This document shows positions 23,931-46,035 of a stretch of 64,000 nucleotides of DNA, piece after piece. This stretch comes from Pseudoxanthomonas spadix (GTDB lineage: Bacteria > Pseudomonadota > Gammaproteobacteria > Xanthomonadales > Xanthomonadaceae): the NCBI RefSeq assembly GCF_003703395.1, contig NZ_RDQN01000004.1:124001-188000 (forward strand), in the 5' to 3' direction. A program made the position numbers and the translations under genes. Below the pieces are notes generated by a model. The model was not told where the DNA came from. It saw nothing but the letters and a program-made list of their open reading frames with translations, and did not search any database. The stretch's first letter is position 1. Every line of letters begins with the position of its first letter.

Positions 23931-24542
23931 ATGGAAGGCGTACGCCTCATCGTCGGGCTGGGCAATCCTGGACCCGAATACGCGCGGACCCGGCATAACG
24001 CCGGGTTCCGTTTTGTGGACGCCCTGGCCCTGCAGCAAGGCGCACGGTTTGCGCCGGAGGCCAAGGTGTTCGGCGAAACCGCGCAAGTCGGCATCAACGG
24101 CCAGACGGTACGACTGCTCAAGCCGTCGACCTACATGAACCTGTCGGGCAAGTCGGTCGCCGCCGCGCTGCGGTTCTGGAAGCTCCAGCCCGAACAGGCG
24201 CTGCTGGCACACGACGAACTGGACCTGCCCGCGGGCGTGGCCCGGTTGAAATTCGATGGCGGACACGGCGGCCAGAATGGCCTGCGCGACACCATGCAGC
24301 TGCTGGGGCATGGGCGCTTTGGGCGCCTGCGCATCGGCATCGGCCATCCCGGCCACAAGGACAAGGTCACCGGCTGGGTGCTGGGCCGTCCGGGCGCCGA
24401 GGACGAGATCCTGATCGGGCGCGCGATCGAGTCGGCACTGGAGGTGCTGCCGCTGGCGGTCTCGGGTGATTTCAACGAGGCGATGAAACGGCTGCATACA
24501 GCCGGGACTCTGGGCTCGGGACTCGGCACTGGGAAGAGATGA
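23931..24542 (+). CDS. pth: peptidyl-tRNA hydrolase
   Basis: A 203-residue enzyme that frees peptides from peptidyl-tRNA dropped by the ribosome. The active site is intact: GLGNPGPEYARTRHNAGF with the catalytic histidine (His22), KPSTYMNLSGKS, HDELDLPAGVARLKF with the catalytic aspartate, and GGHGGQNGLRD. The normal family end is near MKRLHT. The last dozen residues (AGTLGSGLGTGKR) are translated from a GGGACTC-type repeat arm, so the tail seems repeat-derived and nonessential. Confidence 0.94.
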   Translation: MEGVRLIVGLGNPGPEYARTRHNAGFRFVDALALQQGARFAPEAKVFGETAQVGINGQTVRLLKPSTYMNLSGKSVAAALRFWKLQPEQALLAHDELDLPAGVARLKFDGGHGGQNGLRDTMQLLGHGRFGRLRIGIGHPGHKDKVTGWVLGRPGAEDEILIGRAIESALEVLPLAVSGDFNEAMKRLHTAGTLGSGLGTGKR

Positions 24543-24660
24543 ACCCTGGGCGTGTGCTGTCACCCGGTTTTACTTTGAACATAGGATTGCTGCGAATGAA
24601 CGTGCAAGAGCGCCGTGGTTTGGCAAGTCCCGGGTCCCGGGTCCCGAGTCCCGGAGACCG
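24503..24660. repeat. palindromic GGGACTC/GAGTCCC repeat arms at the pth end and before ychF
   Basis: The words GGGACTC and CGGGACTCGG in the last codons of pth (about 24503-24528) are inverted relative to CCCGGGTCCC and CGAGTCCCGG at about 24632-24655, just before ychF. The two arms enclose about 100 bases. They resemble the repeat elements at 36681 and 44418. Confidence 0.6.
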
Positions 24661-24662
24661 TC

Positions 24663-25754
24663 ATGGGAATTAAATGCGGCATCGTGGGCCTGCCGAACGT
24701 CGGCAAGTCGACCCTCTTCAACGCGCTGACCAAGGCCGGCATCGCCGCGGCCAACTTCCCGTTCTGCACCATCGAACCCAACGTGGGCATCGTGCCGGTG
24801 CCCGATCCGCGGCTGAAGGCGCTGGCCGAGATCGTCAAGCCGCACAGGGTGGTGCCCACGGCAGTGGAGTTCGTCGACATTGCCGGCCTGGTGGCCGGCG
24901 CGGCCAGCGGCGAGGGCCTGGGCAACAAGTTCCTCTCGCATATCCGCGAAGTCGATGCGATCGCCCACGTGGTGCGCTGCTTCGAGAACGACGACGTGAT
25001 CCACGTCAATAACAAGGTCGACCCGATCTCGGACATCGAGACCATCGATACCGAGCTGGCCCTGGCCGACCTTGACAGCGTGGAAAAGGCGCTCAACCGC
25101 GCCGAACGCAGCGCCAAGGGCGGGGACAAGGAAGCGGCCGCACGCAAGCCGGTGCTGGCCAGGCTGCAGGCCGCGCTCAACGACGGCATCCCCGCCCGCC
25201 GCGCGGGCCTGGACGAGGAACAAAGGGCGCTGGTGCGCGATCTGTTCCTGCTGACCCTCAAGCCGGTGATGTACATCGCCAACGTGCTCGAGGACGGCTT
25301 CGAGAACAACCCGCACCTGGATGCCGTGCGCGCCCGCGCCGAGCAGGAAGGCGCGCGCGTGGTCCCGGTCTCGGCCGCGATCGAGGAAGAGCTGGCGCAG
25401 CTGGACGACGCCGACCGCGATGCCTTCCTGGCCGACCTGGGGCTGGAAGAGCCCGGCCTGAACCGGGTGATCTACGCCGCCTACCAGCTGCTGGGCCTGC
25501 AGACCTACTTCACCGCCGGAGTGCAGGAGGTGCGCGCGTGGACGGTCAAGGCCGGCTCGACCGCGCCCAAGGCGGCAGCGGTGATCCATACCGACTTCGA
25601 GAAGGGCTTCATCCGCGCCGAGACGATGAGCTACGACGATTTCATCAAGTACAAGGGTGAAGCCGGCTGCAAGGAAGCCGGGCGCCTGCGCCTGGAAGGC
25701 AAGGACTACAAGGTGCAGGAAGGTGACATCCTGCATTTCCGCTTCAACGTGTGA
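24663..25754 (+). CDS. ychF: redox-regulated ribosome-associated ATPase YchF
   Basis: A 363-residue Obg-family protein that binds ATP in preference to GTP because its G4 motif is altered. The P-loop is [15 protein letters not shown] (9-23), switch II is [20 protein letters not shown], and the C-terminal TGS domain contains [14 protein letters not shown] and [12 protein letters not shown]. The ATG at 24663 gives the conserved MGIKCGIVG start; the frame upstream is translated repeat DNA. It ends the conserved prs-rplY-pth-ychF block. Confidence 0.95.
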
Positions 25755-25957
25755 GCGAATTCTGAGGCGCGCAGGACCCGCGTGGCCGGCGGCGCGGGTG
25801 CGGTGTGCGTTGGAACAAAGCCCGGGTGCTTCCCGTGACCGCACATGCCTGCCACAATGCGCGCCCTGCGATCGCACCGCCGCGGGCGGTCCTTGCAGCG
25901 GGCGGGTGCCAGATCCGGCGCGCCGGCCGTCTCGGGCAGGAAATCGGTGATTTGTCG

Positions 25958-25986
25958 TTGACAGGGCATGGATCTGGCGCCAGAAT
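25958..25986 (+). promoter_or_regulatory. sigma-70 promoter of the tRNA-Tyr operon
   Basis: TTGACA (25958-25963), a 17-base spacer and CAGAAT (25981-25986) followed by a GC-rich discriminator. The predicted start is about 45 bases before tRNA-Tyr. The rest of the 282-base gap after ychF shows no gene. Confidence 0.75.
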
Positions 25987-26036
25987 CTCCGGCTGTTTCA
26001 CCCCGGCCCCACCAGGTCGGGACCCCAGGCAGGATC

Positions 26037-26122
26037 GGAGGGATACCCAAGCGGCCAACGGGGGCAGACTGTAAATCTGCTGGCTTACGCCTTCGGTGGT
26101 TCGAATCCACCTCCCTCCACCA
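26037..26122 (+). tRNA. tRNA-Tyr (GTA)
   Basis: A class II tRNA of 86 bases with acceptor GGAGGGA / TCCCTCC, discriminator A and encoded CCA. The anticodon arm GCAGA / TCTGC holds anticodon GTA at 26071-26073. A long variable arm (about 26079-26097) precedes the T-arm GGTGGTTCGAATCCACC. Its last 18 bases are repeated three more times downstream. Confidence 0.97.
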
Positions 26123-26642
26123 AATTGCAGGATCCGGATGTGGCAGTTGCTGGCGATGTTCGGACAAGCGGAGCGCGAGGTGGGTGAGAACCGCCGAGTG
26201 GTTCGACAGAAGTCCCGAAGGGGCTTCTGAACGCACCGGAGGTGCGGCCCGGAGGGCGAGGGACGAAGTCCCGAGTCATCCACCTCCCTCCACCAAATTG
26301 CAGGATCCGGATGTGGCAGTTGCTGGCGATGTTCGGACAAGCGGAGCGCGAGGTGGGTGAGAACCGCCGAGTGGTTCGACAGAAGTCCCGAAGGGGCTTC
26401 TGAACGCACCGGAGGTGCGGCCCGGAGGGCGAGGGACGAAGTCCCGAGTCATCCACCTCCCTCCACCAAATTGCAGGATCCGGATGTGGCAGTTGCTGGC
26501 GATGTTCGGACAAGCGGAGCGCGAGGTGGGTGAGAACCGCCGAGTGGTTCGACAGAAGTCCCGAAGGGGCTTCTGAACGCACCGGAGGTGCGGCCCGGAG
26601 GGCGAGGGACGAAGTCCCGAGTCATCCACCTCCCTCCACCAA
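26105..26642 (+). repeat. three tandem 173-bp repeats carrying the tRNA-Tyr 3' end (rtT-like)
   Basis: A 173-bp unit is repeated three times, starting at 26105, 26278 and 26451. A fourth copy of the tRNA tail starts at 26624. Each unit begins with the last 18 bases of tRNA-Tyr (ATCCACCTCCCTCCACCA) and continues with about 155 bases; the copies look identical. Inside each unit are hairpins: AGAAGTCCC/GGGCTTCT, GCACC-GGA-GGTGC, GCCC-GGA-GGGC and GGGAC-GAA-GTCCC. The layout matches the E. coli tyrT locus, where about 178-bp repeats with a 19-bp tRNA tail give rise to the rtT RNA. No protein is likely, since 173 is not a multiple of three. Confidence 0.9.
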
Positions 26643-26676
26643 TTTCATCAGTTTTTCGTTGTTGCGGTATCCCGGC

Positions 26677-26750
26677 GCGGGAGTAGTTCAACGGTAGAAC
26701 CTCAGCCTTCCAAGCTGATGGTGCGGGTTCGATTCCCGTCTCCCGCTCCA
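26677..26750 (+). tRNA. tRNA-Gly (TCC)
   Basis: A 74-base tRNA with acceptor GCGGGAG / CTCCCGC, discriminator T and encoded CCA. The anticodon arm TCAGC / GCTGA has loop CTTCCAA with anticodon TCC. It lies after the tRNA-Tyr tail repeats and before tRNA-Thr, the same Tyr-Gly-Thr-tuf order as the E. coli tufB operon. Confidence 0.97.
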
Positions 26751-26801
26751 TTGAGCTTCCATCGTCGTCAGCTTGCGCCGCAGCGACACCAAGGGTTTCA
26801 C

Positions 26802-26877
26802 GCTCACGTAGCTCAGTCGGTAGAGCACCTCCTTGGTAAGGAGGAGGTCGAAGGTTCGATTCCTTTCGTGAGCACCA
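26802..26877 (+). tRNA. tRNA-Thr (GGT)
   Basis: A 76-base tRNA with acceptor GCTCACG / CGTGAGC, discriminator A and encoded CCA. The anticodon arm CCTCC / GGAGG holds loop TTGGTAA with anticodon GGT. It ends 52 bases before the first tuf gene and is presumably cut from the same transcript. Confidence 0.97.
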
Positions 26878-26929
26878 TCCAAGCAGTCCCGTTTCACCCT
26901 CTTATCTAACGATCCGAGAATACGCAGCC

Positions 26930-28120
26930 ATGGCAAAGGGTAAGTTCGAGCGCACCAAGCCGCACGTGAACGTGGGCACCATCGGTCATGTGGACCATGG
27001 CAAGACCACGCTGACCGCCGCACTGACCAAGGTCAGCGCCGAGCGTTTCGGTGGCGAGTTCAAGGCCTATGACGCGATCGACGCGGCGCCGGAAGAGAAG
27101 GCACGCGGGATCACGATCTCCACCGCGCACGTGGAATACGAATCGGCCAACCGCCACTACGCGCACGTGGATTGCCCGGGCCACGCCGACTATGTCAAGA
27201 ACATGATCACCGGTGCGGCGCAGATGGACGGGGCGATCCTGGTGTGCTCGGCCGCGGACGGCCCGATGCCGCAGACCCGCGAGCACATCCTGCTGGCCCG
27301 CCAGGTGGGCGTGCCGTACATCGTGGTCTACCTGAACAAGGCCGACCTGGTCGACGATGCCGAGCTGCTCGAGCTGGTCGAGATGGAAGTGCGCGAGCTG
27401 CTGAGCAAGTACGACTTCCCCGGCGATGACACGCCCATCGTCACCGGCTCGGCCCGTTTGGCGCTGGACGGCGACCAGAGCGAGATCGGGGTGCCGTCGA
27501 TCCTGAAGCTGGTCGAGGCGCTGGACACCTGGATCCCGCTGCCCGAGCGCGACGTGGACAAGGCGTTCCTGATGCCGGTCGAAGACGTGTTCTCGATTTC
27601 CGGCCGCGGCACGGTGGTGACCGGCCGGATCGAGCGCGGCGTGATCAAGGTCGGCGACGAAATCGAGATCGTGGGCATCCGCCCGACTCAGAAGACCACC
27701 GTGACCGGCGTGGAGATGTTCCGCAAGCTGCTGGACCAGGGCCAGGCAGGCGACAATGCCGGTCTGCTGCTGCGCGGCACCAAGCGCGACGACGTCGAGC
27801 GTGGTCAGGTCCTGTGCAAGCCCGGTTCGATCAAGCCGCACACCGAGTTCGAGGCCGAGGTCTACGTGCTGAGCAAGGACGAGGGCGGCCGCCACACCCC
27901 GTTCTTCAAGGGCTACCGTCCGCAGTTCTACTTCCGCACCACCGACATCACTGGTGCGGTGCAGCTGCCGGAAGGCACCGAGATGGTGATGCCGGGCGAC
28001 AATGTGAAGATGGTGGTGGCGCTGATCAACCCGGTGGCGATGGACGAGGGCCTGCGCTTTGCGATCCGCGAAGGCGGCCGCACCGTCGGCGCCGGCGTCG
28101 TGTCCAAGATCATCAAGTGA
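26930..28120 (+). CDS. tuf: translation elongation factor EF-Tu, copy 1
   Basis: A 396-residue GTPase that brings aminoacyl-tRNA to the ribosome. The G1 motif is [10 protein letters not shown] (19-28), then RGITIS (59-64), DCPGHADYV (81-89), NKAD (136-139) and SARL (174-177). Domains II and III follow. Compared with the second copy at 44553 it differs at 19 residues, eight of them between 171 and 209 (for example VT to IH at 171-172 and W201F). It is last in the tRNA-Tyr-Gly-Thr-tuf operon and ends at a strong hairpin. Confidence 0.98.
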
Positions 28121-28129
28121 TGTGACGGC

Positions 28130-28157
28130 GCGTTCGCGCACCCGCGCGAACGCCTTT
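28130..28157 (+). terminator. terminator after tuf copy 1
   Basis: A perfect ten-pair stem, GCGTTCGCGC (28130-28139) and GCGCGAACGC (28144-28153), with loop ACCC, followed by CTTTG. The same hairpin follows the second tuf gene. Confidence 0.75.
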
Positions 28158-28158
28158 G

Positions 28159-28295
28159 CCGGAACATCATCCCCGCGCAGGCGGGGATCCAGGTGGACGC
28201 GAAGGCTTTGCCGGAACATCATCCCCGCGCAGGCGGGGATCCAGGTGGACGCGAAGGCTTTGCCGGAACATCATCCCCGCGCAGGCGGGGATCCA
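28159..28295. repeat. three CATCCCCGC-type palindromic repeats, 52-bp period
   Basis: A 52-bp unit, the third copy truncated, starts near 28161, 28213 and 28265. Each contains ATCCCCGC-GCAG-GCGGGGAT, an eight-pair hairpin with a four-base loop, then a near-identical linker. The same family follows the second tuf gene, and a single copy lies after rplA. Confidence 0.85.
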
Positions 28296-28342
28296 GAACC
28301 GGCACAGGCGAGCTCTGATTCGCCTGTGCCTTTGCAGTTAAT

Positions 28343-28418
<76 letters not shown>

Positions 28419-28481
28419 CTGTCCCGTTCGTCCCGTCGCCGACCGGCGCCGGTGCAGTGCAAGGCGGCACATTCGAGTTCA

Positions 28482-28874
28482 ATGAACAGCAAGATCCAGC
28501 AATCCAAGGCGGCAGGCACCTCCGGCGCCGACATGGCCAAGTATGTGGCGGCCGCGGCACTGGTGGTGGCAGGCCTGGTGGTGTGGTGGTGGTTTGCCGG
28601 TCAGTGGGCCACGCCGCTGCGTGCACTGGCGGTCGTGGCGGGCCTGGTGGCTGGTGCTGCGGTGTTCATTTCCACGGCCAAGGGCAAGGACACGCTCGAG
28701 TTCCTGTCCGAATCCCGCTTCGAGCTGCGCAAGGTGGTCTGGCCCACGCGCCAGGAATCGCTGCGCATGACCTGGGTGGTGATGGTGGTGGTGTTGATCC
28801 TCAGCCTGATCCTGGCTGGCTTCGATTTCGGCATCCAGTGGATGATCGAAAAACTGTTCACGATGGGTCGTTGA
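28482..28874 (+). CDS. secE: preprotein translocase subunit SecE
   Basis: A 130-residue membrane protein of the SecYEG channel. It has three hydrophobic segments ([37 protein letters not shown] and WVVMVVVLILSLILAGFDFG). The conserved cytosolic amphipathic helix RFELRKVVWPTRQE lies before the last one. The three-helix form is typical of gammaproteobacteria. The ATG at 28482 gives the usual length. nusG starts 13 bases downstream, forming the standard secE-nusG operon. Confidence 0.95.
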   Translation: MNSKIQQSKAAGTSGADMAKYVAAAALVVAGLVVWWWFAGQWATPLRALAVVAGLVAGAAVFISTAKGKDTLEFLSESRFELRKVVWPTRQESLRMTWVVMVVVLILSLILAGFDFGIQWMIEKLFTMGR

Positions 28875-28887
28875 GGAGAATTGAGCT

Positions 28888-29445
28888 GTGAAGCGTTGGT
28901 ACGTGGTACATGCCTATTCGGGCTTCGAGAAGTCGGTGGCGCAGGCGCTGCGCGATCGCATCGTCCGCAACGGCATGGAGGAGCGCTTCGGTGACGTGCT
29001 GGTGCCGACCGAGGAGGTCGTGGAGATGCGCGCCGGCCAGAAGCGGCGCTCCGAGCGCAAGTTCTTCCCCGGCTACGTGCTGGTCCAGATCGAGACCCAC
29101 GAGGAAGGCGGGATCCCGCGCATCGACAACGAGTCCTGGCACCTGGTGAAGGAAACCGGCAAGGTCCTGGGTTTCATCGGTGGCACCGCCGACCGTCCGT
29201 TGCCGATCCGAGACGAAGAGGCGGCCGCCATCCTGGATCGTGTTCAGGAAGGCGTGGAAAAGCCCCGTCCCAAGGTGCTGTTCGAGCCGGGCGAGCTGGT
29301 CCGGGTGGTCGATGGCCCGTTCAACGACTTCAACGGCGTGGTCGAAGAGGTCAACTACGAGAAGAGCCGCCTGCGCGTGGCCGTGCTCATCTTTGGCCGC
29401 TCCACCCCGGTGGAGCTCGAATTCGGCCAGGTCGAGAAGGCCTGA
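28888..29445 (+). CDS. nusG: transcription termination/antitermination factor NusG
   Basis: A 185-residue factor that binds RNA polymerase and couples it to Rho or the ribosome. The NGN domain (1-125, starting [20 protein letters not shown]) contains FFPGYVLVQ and the [16 protein letters not shown] segment. The KOW domain (from about 133) starts [19 protein letters not shown]. The GAGG-type ribosome-binding site precedes the ATG. It follows secE and precedes the rplKAJL genes. Confidence 0.97.
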
Positions 29446-29494
29446 TCCGGGTCGCCCGGCGCCGCCCACGCGCGCGCCGGGTGGCAAAAAACCT

Positions 29495-29502
29495 GATATA
29501 GT
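29495..29502 (+). promoter_or_regulatory. extended -10 promoter of rplK
   Basis: TATAGT (29497-29502) is preceded by TG one base upstream, making an extended -10. No clear -35 lies 17 bases upstream. Transcription would start near 29510, leaving about 145 bases of leader before rplK. Confidence 0.5.
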
Positions 29503-45752: not shown

Positions 45753-45780
45753 GCGTTCGCGCACCCGCGCGAACGCCTTT
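45753..45780 (+). terminator. terminator after tuf copy 2
   Basis: GCGTTCGCGC (45753-45762) and GCGCGAACGC (45767-45776) with loop ACCC and a following CTTT. The sequence is identical to that after tuf copy 1, so the duplication or gene conversion tract extends past the stop codon. Confidence 0.75.
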
Positions 45781-45782
45781 GC

Positions 45783-46035
45783 CGGAACATCATCCCCGCG
45801 CAGGCGGGGATCCAAAGGACGCGCAGGGTTTCGCCAGAACATCATCCCCGCGCAGGCGGGGATCCAAAGGACGCGCAGGCCTTTGCCGGAACATCATCCC
45901 CGCGCAGGCGGGATCCAAAGGACGCGCGGGGCTTTGTCAGATCGTCATCCCCGAATGCTTCAATCGGGGATCCAAAGGACGCGCAGGGCTTTGTCAGATC
46001 GTCATCCCCGAATGCTTCAATCGGGGATCCAGGGG
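45783..46035. repeat. five CATCCCCG-type palindromic repeats after tuf copy 2
   Basis: Three units with 52-bp spacing (around 45786, 45838, 45890) carry the ATCCCCGC-GCAG-GCGGGGAT hairpin; the third has lost one G. Two further units, 57 bp apart (around 45944 and 46001), carry a variant hairpin, ATCCCCGA / TCGGGGAT, with a longer loop containing ATGCTTCA. Each is followed by CAAAGGACGCGC-type linkers. There are no cas genes nearby and the linkers are alike, so it is not CRISPR. Confidence 0.85.

Follow-up and report, generated by a model that had tools for sequence, protein, structure and literature searches.

Background

The tRNA-linked repeats (TLRs) of Escherichia coli were first described in 1978 and, according to the available parts of Stenum et al. 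(2021, PMC8144298), still had no known function in 2021. That source counts 22 TLRs at ten E. coli loci, each with 18-19 bp identical to the end of the upstream tRNA or rRNA, and reports that they are transcribed and processed into discrete RNA. It further states that a claim tying rtT to starvation (the stringent response) was retracted, that the three 5S-linked members RrA, RrB and RrF bind Hfq and CsrA, and that the 19 tRNA-linked E. coli members have CsrA scores under 0.01, so that binding is not predicted; RNase E action at the tail is suggested for a 5S-linked member. RtTs of Actinobacillus yield Northern signals (PMC4986893, in the sections available), a tandem GA motif in RtT has already been published (PMC7657543; PMC8250186, both in excerpt), and rtT-like elements are reported within BIME repeats 5' of protein genes (PMC2965389, in excerpt), which indicates that dispersed relatives were noticed previously. 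Another E. coli RNA released from a tRNA precursor is 3'ETS-leuZ, which differs from TLRs in that the excerpts of PMC8144298 describe it as a sponge for RyhB and RybB, with no tRNA-tail repeat.

An array of three RtT units behind tRNA-Tyr

A first-pass annotation of the window (the whole 64,000-nucleotide stretch of Pseudoxanthomonas spadix DNA analysed here) had described a tRNA-Tyr gene followed by three identical 173-bp repeats ending in the tRNA tail, with a strict 173-base period and tail copies at 26278, 26451 and 26624. ARAGORN, Tandem Repeats Finder (TRF) and a repeat search bear this out. The three units, 173 bp each and 100% identical, directly abut the 3' end of tRNA-Tyr with no gap. 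TRF reported an array at 26105-26642 with a period of 173, 3.1 copies, 100% matches and 0% indels; the repeat search placed copies at 26105, 26278 and 26451 (spacing 173 and 173) with identities of 100, 100 and 99% over 195 nt. In all three units the last 18 nt equal the last 18 nt of tRNA-Tyr (26105-26122) at 18 of 18 positions. The number of copies rests on the assembly, in which the array lies in the interior of a 450,344-bp contig. The features of the locus are as follows.

25958..25986, + strand: candidate sigma-70-like promoter 5' of tRNA-Tyr (10 of 12 positions matched in a consensus scan; 0.1 such sites expected per shuffle)
26037..26122, + strand: tRNA-Tyr(gta), the host gene (ARAGORN; Rfam tRNA)
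26123..26295, + strand: unit 1 of the array (TRF; RtT 68.4 bits at 26163-26295)
26123..26176, + strand: spacer part of unit 1, from tRNA to element (unlike the element, only 38 of 54 aligned positions common with genome G451)
26177..26197, + strand: inverted arm of unit 1, an imperfect reverse complement of the tRNA 3' domain (sequence; pairs with the tail in the predicted fold and covaries in relatives)
26200..26206, + strand: direct arm of unit 1, GGTTCGA, resembling the start of the tRNA T arm (sequence; near-invariant in alignment A1)
26207..26277, + strand: hairpin core of unit 1 (predicted to form four hairpins; alignment and pair counts)
26278..26295, + strand: 18-nt tRNA tail of unit 1 (identical to 26105-26122)
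26296..26468, + strand: unit 2, with its tail at 26451-26468 (TRF; Rfam RtT)
26469..26641, + strand: unit 3, with its tail at 26624-26641 (TRF; Rfam RtT)
26677..26750, + strand: tRNA-Gly(tcc), the next downstream gene (ARAGORN)
26802..26877, + strand: tRNA-Thr(ggt) (ARAGORN)
26930..28120, + strand: open reading frame that, from its translation, we take to be EF-Tu (tuf), given as context (ORF list)

A covariance-model search against Rfam RtT (RF00391), proposed in the first pass as a check, was passed by all three units at 68.4 bits each (model positions 1-130 of 130; cut-off 45). TLRs lie in tRNA or rRNA operons with one to five per locus, and here three lie between tRNA-Tyr and tRNA-Gly. The window array is a member of this known family of tRNA-linked repeats (TLRs, RtT). 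GGA motifs are present in the sequence of every unit. The candidate promoter, together with the lack of a terminator-like site in 25750-27000 (1.0 expected in shuffles), suggests that the units probably share one transcript with the downstream tRNA-Gly, tRNA-Thr and tuf.

The suggested kinship with the E. coli tyrT/rtT locus is upheld by the RtT match and by the units of K-12 tyrT and tyrV, which show the same layout. The rtT/RttR units (RF00391) likewise stand behind tRNA-Tyr, measure about 175-178 bp, end in an 18-nt tRNA tail and contain an inverted arm, GGTTCGA and a hairpin core, although the sequence of that core differs from the window core. The K-12 tyrT-tyrV locus has four RtT matches of 132.9 to 137.5 bits, against 68.4 bits in the window units, and its arrangement is different: one unit separates two tRNA-Tyr genes and the other three close the operon, whereas all three window units lie between tRNA-Tyr and tRNA-Gly.

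The tail of a unit follows the upstream tRNA

RtT was sought with Rfam scans in 149 genomes of the family and 274 of the class; 25 and 51 of these, respectively, had matches at E up to 0.001, and 9 and 19 had matches over the cut-off. We examined 138 of the 139 listed hits, the remaining one (G068:C26) being without a locus, for a tRNA at most 1500 nt upstream on the same strand. Such a tRNA was found for 116 of the 138 hits; nine of the 22 hits without one had no more than 330 nt of upstream sequence. The tail matched its own upstream tRNA at 18 of 18 positions in 85 of the 116 units and at 16 or more in 98, and 18 units fell below 16 of 18, several of their tails being cut short. The host tRNAs were Ser (59), Gln (30), Tyr (19), Arg (4), Glu (3) and Val (1, with 17/18).

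R1, a model of our own built here, was used on 249 phylum genomes and gave matches in 60, with 38 outside the class and 33 of these in one family (f190). We examined 54 among the matches listed, plus 11 more that were mostly core-only. Among the former 54, a tRNA was found for 47 and none for seven; the tail agreed with it at 18 of 18 positions in 34 of the 47, at 16 or more in 37 and at fewer than 16 in 10. These 54, from among the matches listed, add Asp, Lys and Pro hosts, so that nine amino-acid types are represented overall. At two further loci, both in one genome (L209 and L210), the matched unit ends like the E. coli 5S gene.

Predicted fold and covariation of the unit

A single unit folds at -92.3 kcal/mol (z = -6.21), and none of 200 dinucleotide shuffles folds as well. 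Within the unit, the inverted arm, which complements the tRNA 3' domain, precedes GGTTCGA, a series of hairpins, AATCC and the tail; the hairpin core sits where the T-loop would continue after GGTTCGA. This layout is clearest in the Tyr units of G068, the Gln and Val units of G162, the Glu units of G376 and E. coli tyrT.

Among 83 units, the mean pairing energy of the inverted arm with its own tail is -18.9 kcal/mol, against -13.6 (sd 0.34) when tails are permuted. The own tail pairs better than the mean foreign tail in 72 of the 83 units, and better than all tails from other amino acids in 43; the 11 units in which it pairs no better than the mean foreign tail include seven behind Ser(gga) and two behind Ser(cga). 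Beyond the complement of the tail, in the 58 units left after motif filters, agreement between the inverted arm and its own tRNA averages 3.50 of 7 positions versus 2.46 (sd 0.13) when permuted, mostly in the first three positions.

We counted base pairs in alignment A1, which comprises 34 of 76 selected units. RNAalifold found only 17 pairs in A1, and further hairpins were drawn by hand from its rows before counting. In the resulting structure, 85.4% of cells are paired against 32 to 50% when it is slid, a figure that the hand-drawn hairpins bias upward, and two-sided cells number 179 against 65.9 in shuffles (none of 500 as high), a count that they bias less. Two-sided changes occur in 6 of the 10 pairs of the outer helix, formed by inverted arm and tail, and one core hairpin is poorly aligned (50.8% paired). 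Judged from these aligned sequences, the inverted arm and the tail covary, in what is predicted to be an acceptor/T-arm-like helix ending in CCA.

At five loci in relatives (L114, L083, L006, L019 and L022), a terminator-like palindrome found after the tRNA tail recurs after the unit tail, and the tandem unit therefore takes in this palindrome; at L022 it continues into the reverse complement of the tRNA tail.

Patchy distribution and turnover

A comparison of relatives had been proposed in the first pass, with the absence of a repeat at this locus as the outcome that would count against its claim. Among the 30 Tyr-Gly loci examined, which were returned for 38 genus genomes, only three contain units (3, 1 and 2 copies); in the other 27 the two tRNA genes are separated by 29-73 bp. 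That outcome was thus largely found at the locus, although the family itself is not absent; the 27 empty loci indicate patchiness of the Tyr locus rather than absence of the family.

In the genus scan, the window Tyr core is common only to G451, and an exact 57-base piece of the core was found in one contig record, from Pseudoxanthomonas wuyuanensis, by a search that may leave out records very near the window. G451 is therefore probably P. wuyuanensis, which agrees with a Pseudoxanthomonas origin of the window. Five genomes with a Gly-Thr-tuf stretch 92-94% identical to that of the window are without units. In G451 the corresponding stretch is 85% identical, yet its 119-nt element matches that of the window genome (G000) at 119 of 119 positions, and the 54-nt spacer preceding it at 38 of 54. 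Two other G451 elements with Ser-like tails match the Ser element of the window genome at only 96 of 116 and 97 of 129 columns, which makes a general constraint unlikely to explain the 119/119 identity. The simplest reading would be a recent transfer or gene conversion of the element alone between the G451 and window lineages. The 500 bp 5' of tRNA-Tyr align poorly in all compared genomes and are uninformative.

At E. coli tyrT, the annotated RtT copies number 0 (8 rows), 1 (21), 2 (9), 3 (9), 4 (12) and 5 (1), as counted at the best place in each of 60 rows spread over 5391 records, in which places matching only part of the query are undercounted. By these counts, copy number at TLR loci turns over.

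The hairpin core in other settings

The window genome contains a second array, of three units of about 166 bp, which is followed by the small SRP RNA.

G000, contig C21, 373500-377500: Ser array locus (L031), three units behind tRNA-Ser(gga)

The order tRNA-Ser(gga), TLR, SRP RNA is also seen at L004, L008 and L034. In a relative, the Rfam family sX4 (RF02223) covers tRNA-Ser(cga) and the start of the TLR (L034:1909-2075, 205.1 bits), differing from RtT in that its model takes in the tRNA itself; the Rfam scan gave no sX4 match at the window Tyr locus. Further sX4 matches over tRNA-Ser and the TLR start are present at L004, L006, L008, L029 and L030. Given this coincidence, the sX4 sRNA may be a tRNA/TLR precursor.

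The E. coli 5S-linked repeats rrA, rrB and rrF have the same hairpin core, with the same hairpin series, as the window family, and here the core splits a direct copy of the 5S 3' end, the rest of which follows in the tail. They differ in lying behind 5S rRNA between two terminators, in having no clear inverted arm and in the CsrA and Hfq binding reported for them in the available text of PMC8144298. Between the Gln and Val units of G162, 94.5% of the core is common, whereas arms and tails differ. The first pass had offered shared ancestry or independent selection for this device. The same core sequence and hairpin order reappear behind tRNAs of different kinds, behind 5S and in families far apart, which favours a shared ancestry of the core over independent invention; the comparison to a tyrT-like device is right as to relationship but too narrow, since the family sits behind many tRNAs and 5S. 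The literature searched, apart from Egan and Landy 1978, Bosl and Kersten 1991 and 1994 and Rudd 1999, yielded no account of the inverted arm or of a spreading core.

Deep orthology by tRNA type is unsupported. Between families, units that share an anticodon average 0.661 in core identity (506 pairs), those with different anticodons for one amino acid 0.635 (744 pairs) and those for different amino acids 0.649 (2625 pairs); within a genome the mean is 0.717 across amino acids (29 pairs, not independent because array units are counted apart) and 0.683 across isoacceptors (9 pairs).

Six weaker core matches lie at four places on contigs C1, C20 and C23 of the window genome (E 3.8e-5 to 0.0095 per genome), with no tRNA or Rfam RNA within the 1.4-1.5 kb examined. 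The core-like hairpin series at L182, L183, L184 and L185 (G000 contigs C1, C23 and C20) are without a tRNA in the examined stretch, and C1 has two places where the core-like hairpins form tandem copies, each about 71 bp long. Among 20 core loci from nine further genomes and the window genome, 13 have no tRNA in the examined stretch; three of these 13 sit at the end of a contig and may thus lack a 5S gene or some other repeated gene. Weak tRNA-less core matches may be partly due to chance or be 5S-linked. No match to the unit or the element was found in phages and plasmids. Five viral-collection contigs (IMG/VR, L253-L257) carry the motif GGATGAGAACC..GGTTCGAC, with no tRNA in the pieces examined.

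Possible nature of the repeats

The mimicry of a tRNA helix, the patchiness and the presence of the core in several settings point to a semi-mobile element tolerated through tRNA processing. On balance, we favour the explanation that the units are a semi-mobile RNA element of tRNA operons, tolerated since a tRNA-like end would let tRNA-processing enzymes excise the unit. A unit would consist of an inverted copy of the tRNA 3' domain and then a direct copy that is interrupted by the hairpin core and resumed in the 18-nt tail; the helix of inverted arm and tail would mimic the acceptor/T arm and end in CCA. We propose that, with such a helix, the end of a unit could pass for that of a tRNA and be processed by the enzymes that mature tRNA ends, releasing the unit, much as others have suggested for RNase E at a 5S-linked member. 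The semi-mobile core would spread between RNA genes and species, with arms matching the host gene, and copy number would shift through recombination between repeats; the fit of both arms to a new tRNA might, as a guess, come from template switching. What the sequences themselves show is the family identity, the layout, the tracking of the tRNA by the tail, the covariation, the patchiness and an identical element in diverged surroundings; from these we infer processing, mobility, the making of the arms and the absence of an essential role. Against a tolerated element stand the low-matching tails (18 of 116 and 10 of 47 below 16/18), the hits without a tRNA (22 of 138 and 7 of 54) and the 11 of 83 inverted arms without preference for their own tail, nine of which are Ser(gga) or Ser(cga). 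We know of no mobilising enzyme for TLRs.

An alternative is that the unit is a dedicated trans-acting regulatory RNA, which once released binds a regulator (CsrA/RsmA or Hfq) or mRNAs and so ties transcription of the tRNA/EF-Tu operon to gene control. The conserved structure of the core, the binding of Hfq and CsrA by RrA, RrB and RrF (PMC8144298, available parts) and the Northern signals from Actinobacillus (PMC4986893, available sections) are consistent with such a role; the CsrA scores under 0.01 of the 19 tRNA-linked members and the retracted stringent-response claim (both PMC8144298, available parts), the absence of units from 27 of 30 genus loci and an E. coli copy number ranging from 0 to 5 argue against it, and we regard it as unlikely. 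A two-state fold acting in cis appears less probable again. Here the inverted arm would pair with the tRNA 3' domain instead of the unit tail, competing with folding or maturation of the tRNA. In joint minimum-energy folds of tRNA and first unit, the acceptor stem is lost in 70 of the 74 tRNAs that form it alone, mostly through pairing of the tRNA 3' domain with the unit, and the median gain over separate folds is 7.6 kcal/mol (window 2.6, E. coli tyrT 13.3, tyrV 12.0). However, shuffled units also break the stem in about half of cases (0.49 keep it), and the tRNA, being transcribed first, folds before the unit does and gains stability from tertiary contacts and modifications for which the model has no terms. 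The tyrT operon of E. coli makes a functional tRNA-Tyr, yet tyrT shows the same joint-fold effect; the effect may thus reflect either a shortcoming of the energy model or a switch. Should the predicted disruption be real, it would count against a harmless passenger, which ought to avoid it. Protection of the tRNA from the inverted arm by the tail is unsupported: the acceptor stem is kept in 4 of 74 cases with the full unit and in 8 of 74 without the tail.

The copy number of the array could also be an assembly artefact, or the array a meaningless tandem duplication, as might be suspected from exactly identical units and from several related hits at contig ends; arrays of at least two units in relatives and in E. 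coli genomes, the second three-unit array behind tRNA-Ser(gga) in the window genome and the fact that one unit alone passes RtT make this very improbable. Still harder to sustain is an origin as remnants of site-specific integration, with the direct repeats of the tRNA 3' end as attachment-site duplications of a mobile element. Each unit is indeed flanked by such repeats, as after integrase action, but the open reading frames of 24000-29500, inspected by eye, include no integrase or recombinase, there is no phage or plasmid match, and the unit is a conserved, covarying RNA with an inverted arm that an attachment site does not need. On these grounds, with a structure that covaries and no recombinase seen close by, attachment-site debris is largely refuted.

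Returning to the tolerated semi-mobile element, we put forward a broader version only tentatively and hold it to be possible rather than probable: TLRs would be one face of a family of mobile RNA elements, in which a portable core is framed by copies of the 3' end of each host RNA gene (direct, and in tRNAs also inverted). Under this disguise, host maturation enzymes would excise the element with little harm, and it would move between RNA genes and species with its arms rewritten, perhaps by template switching. The portable core has been seen here with tRNAs for nine amino acids and with 5S. What gives the comparison its interest is the light it throws on a long-orphaned family: it makes the role of TLRs testable, as they appear by covariation to mimic the acceptor/T helix of their own tRNA, are patchy and variable in number, and have a core that occurs in more than one setting.

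Elsewhere in the window, at 28145-28296 and 45768-46031, there are tandem palindromic repeats with the unit CATCATCCCCGCGCAGGCGGGGATCC and periods of 52 to 108.
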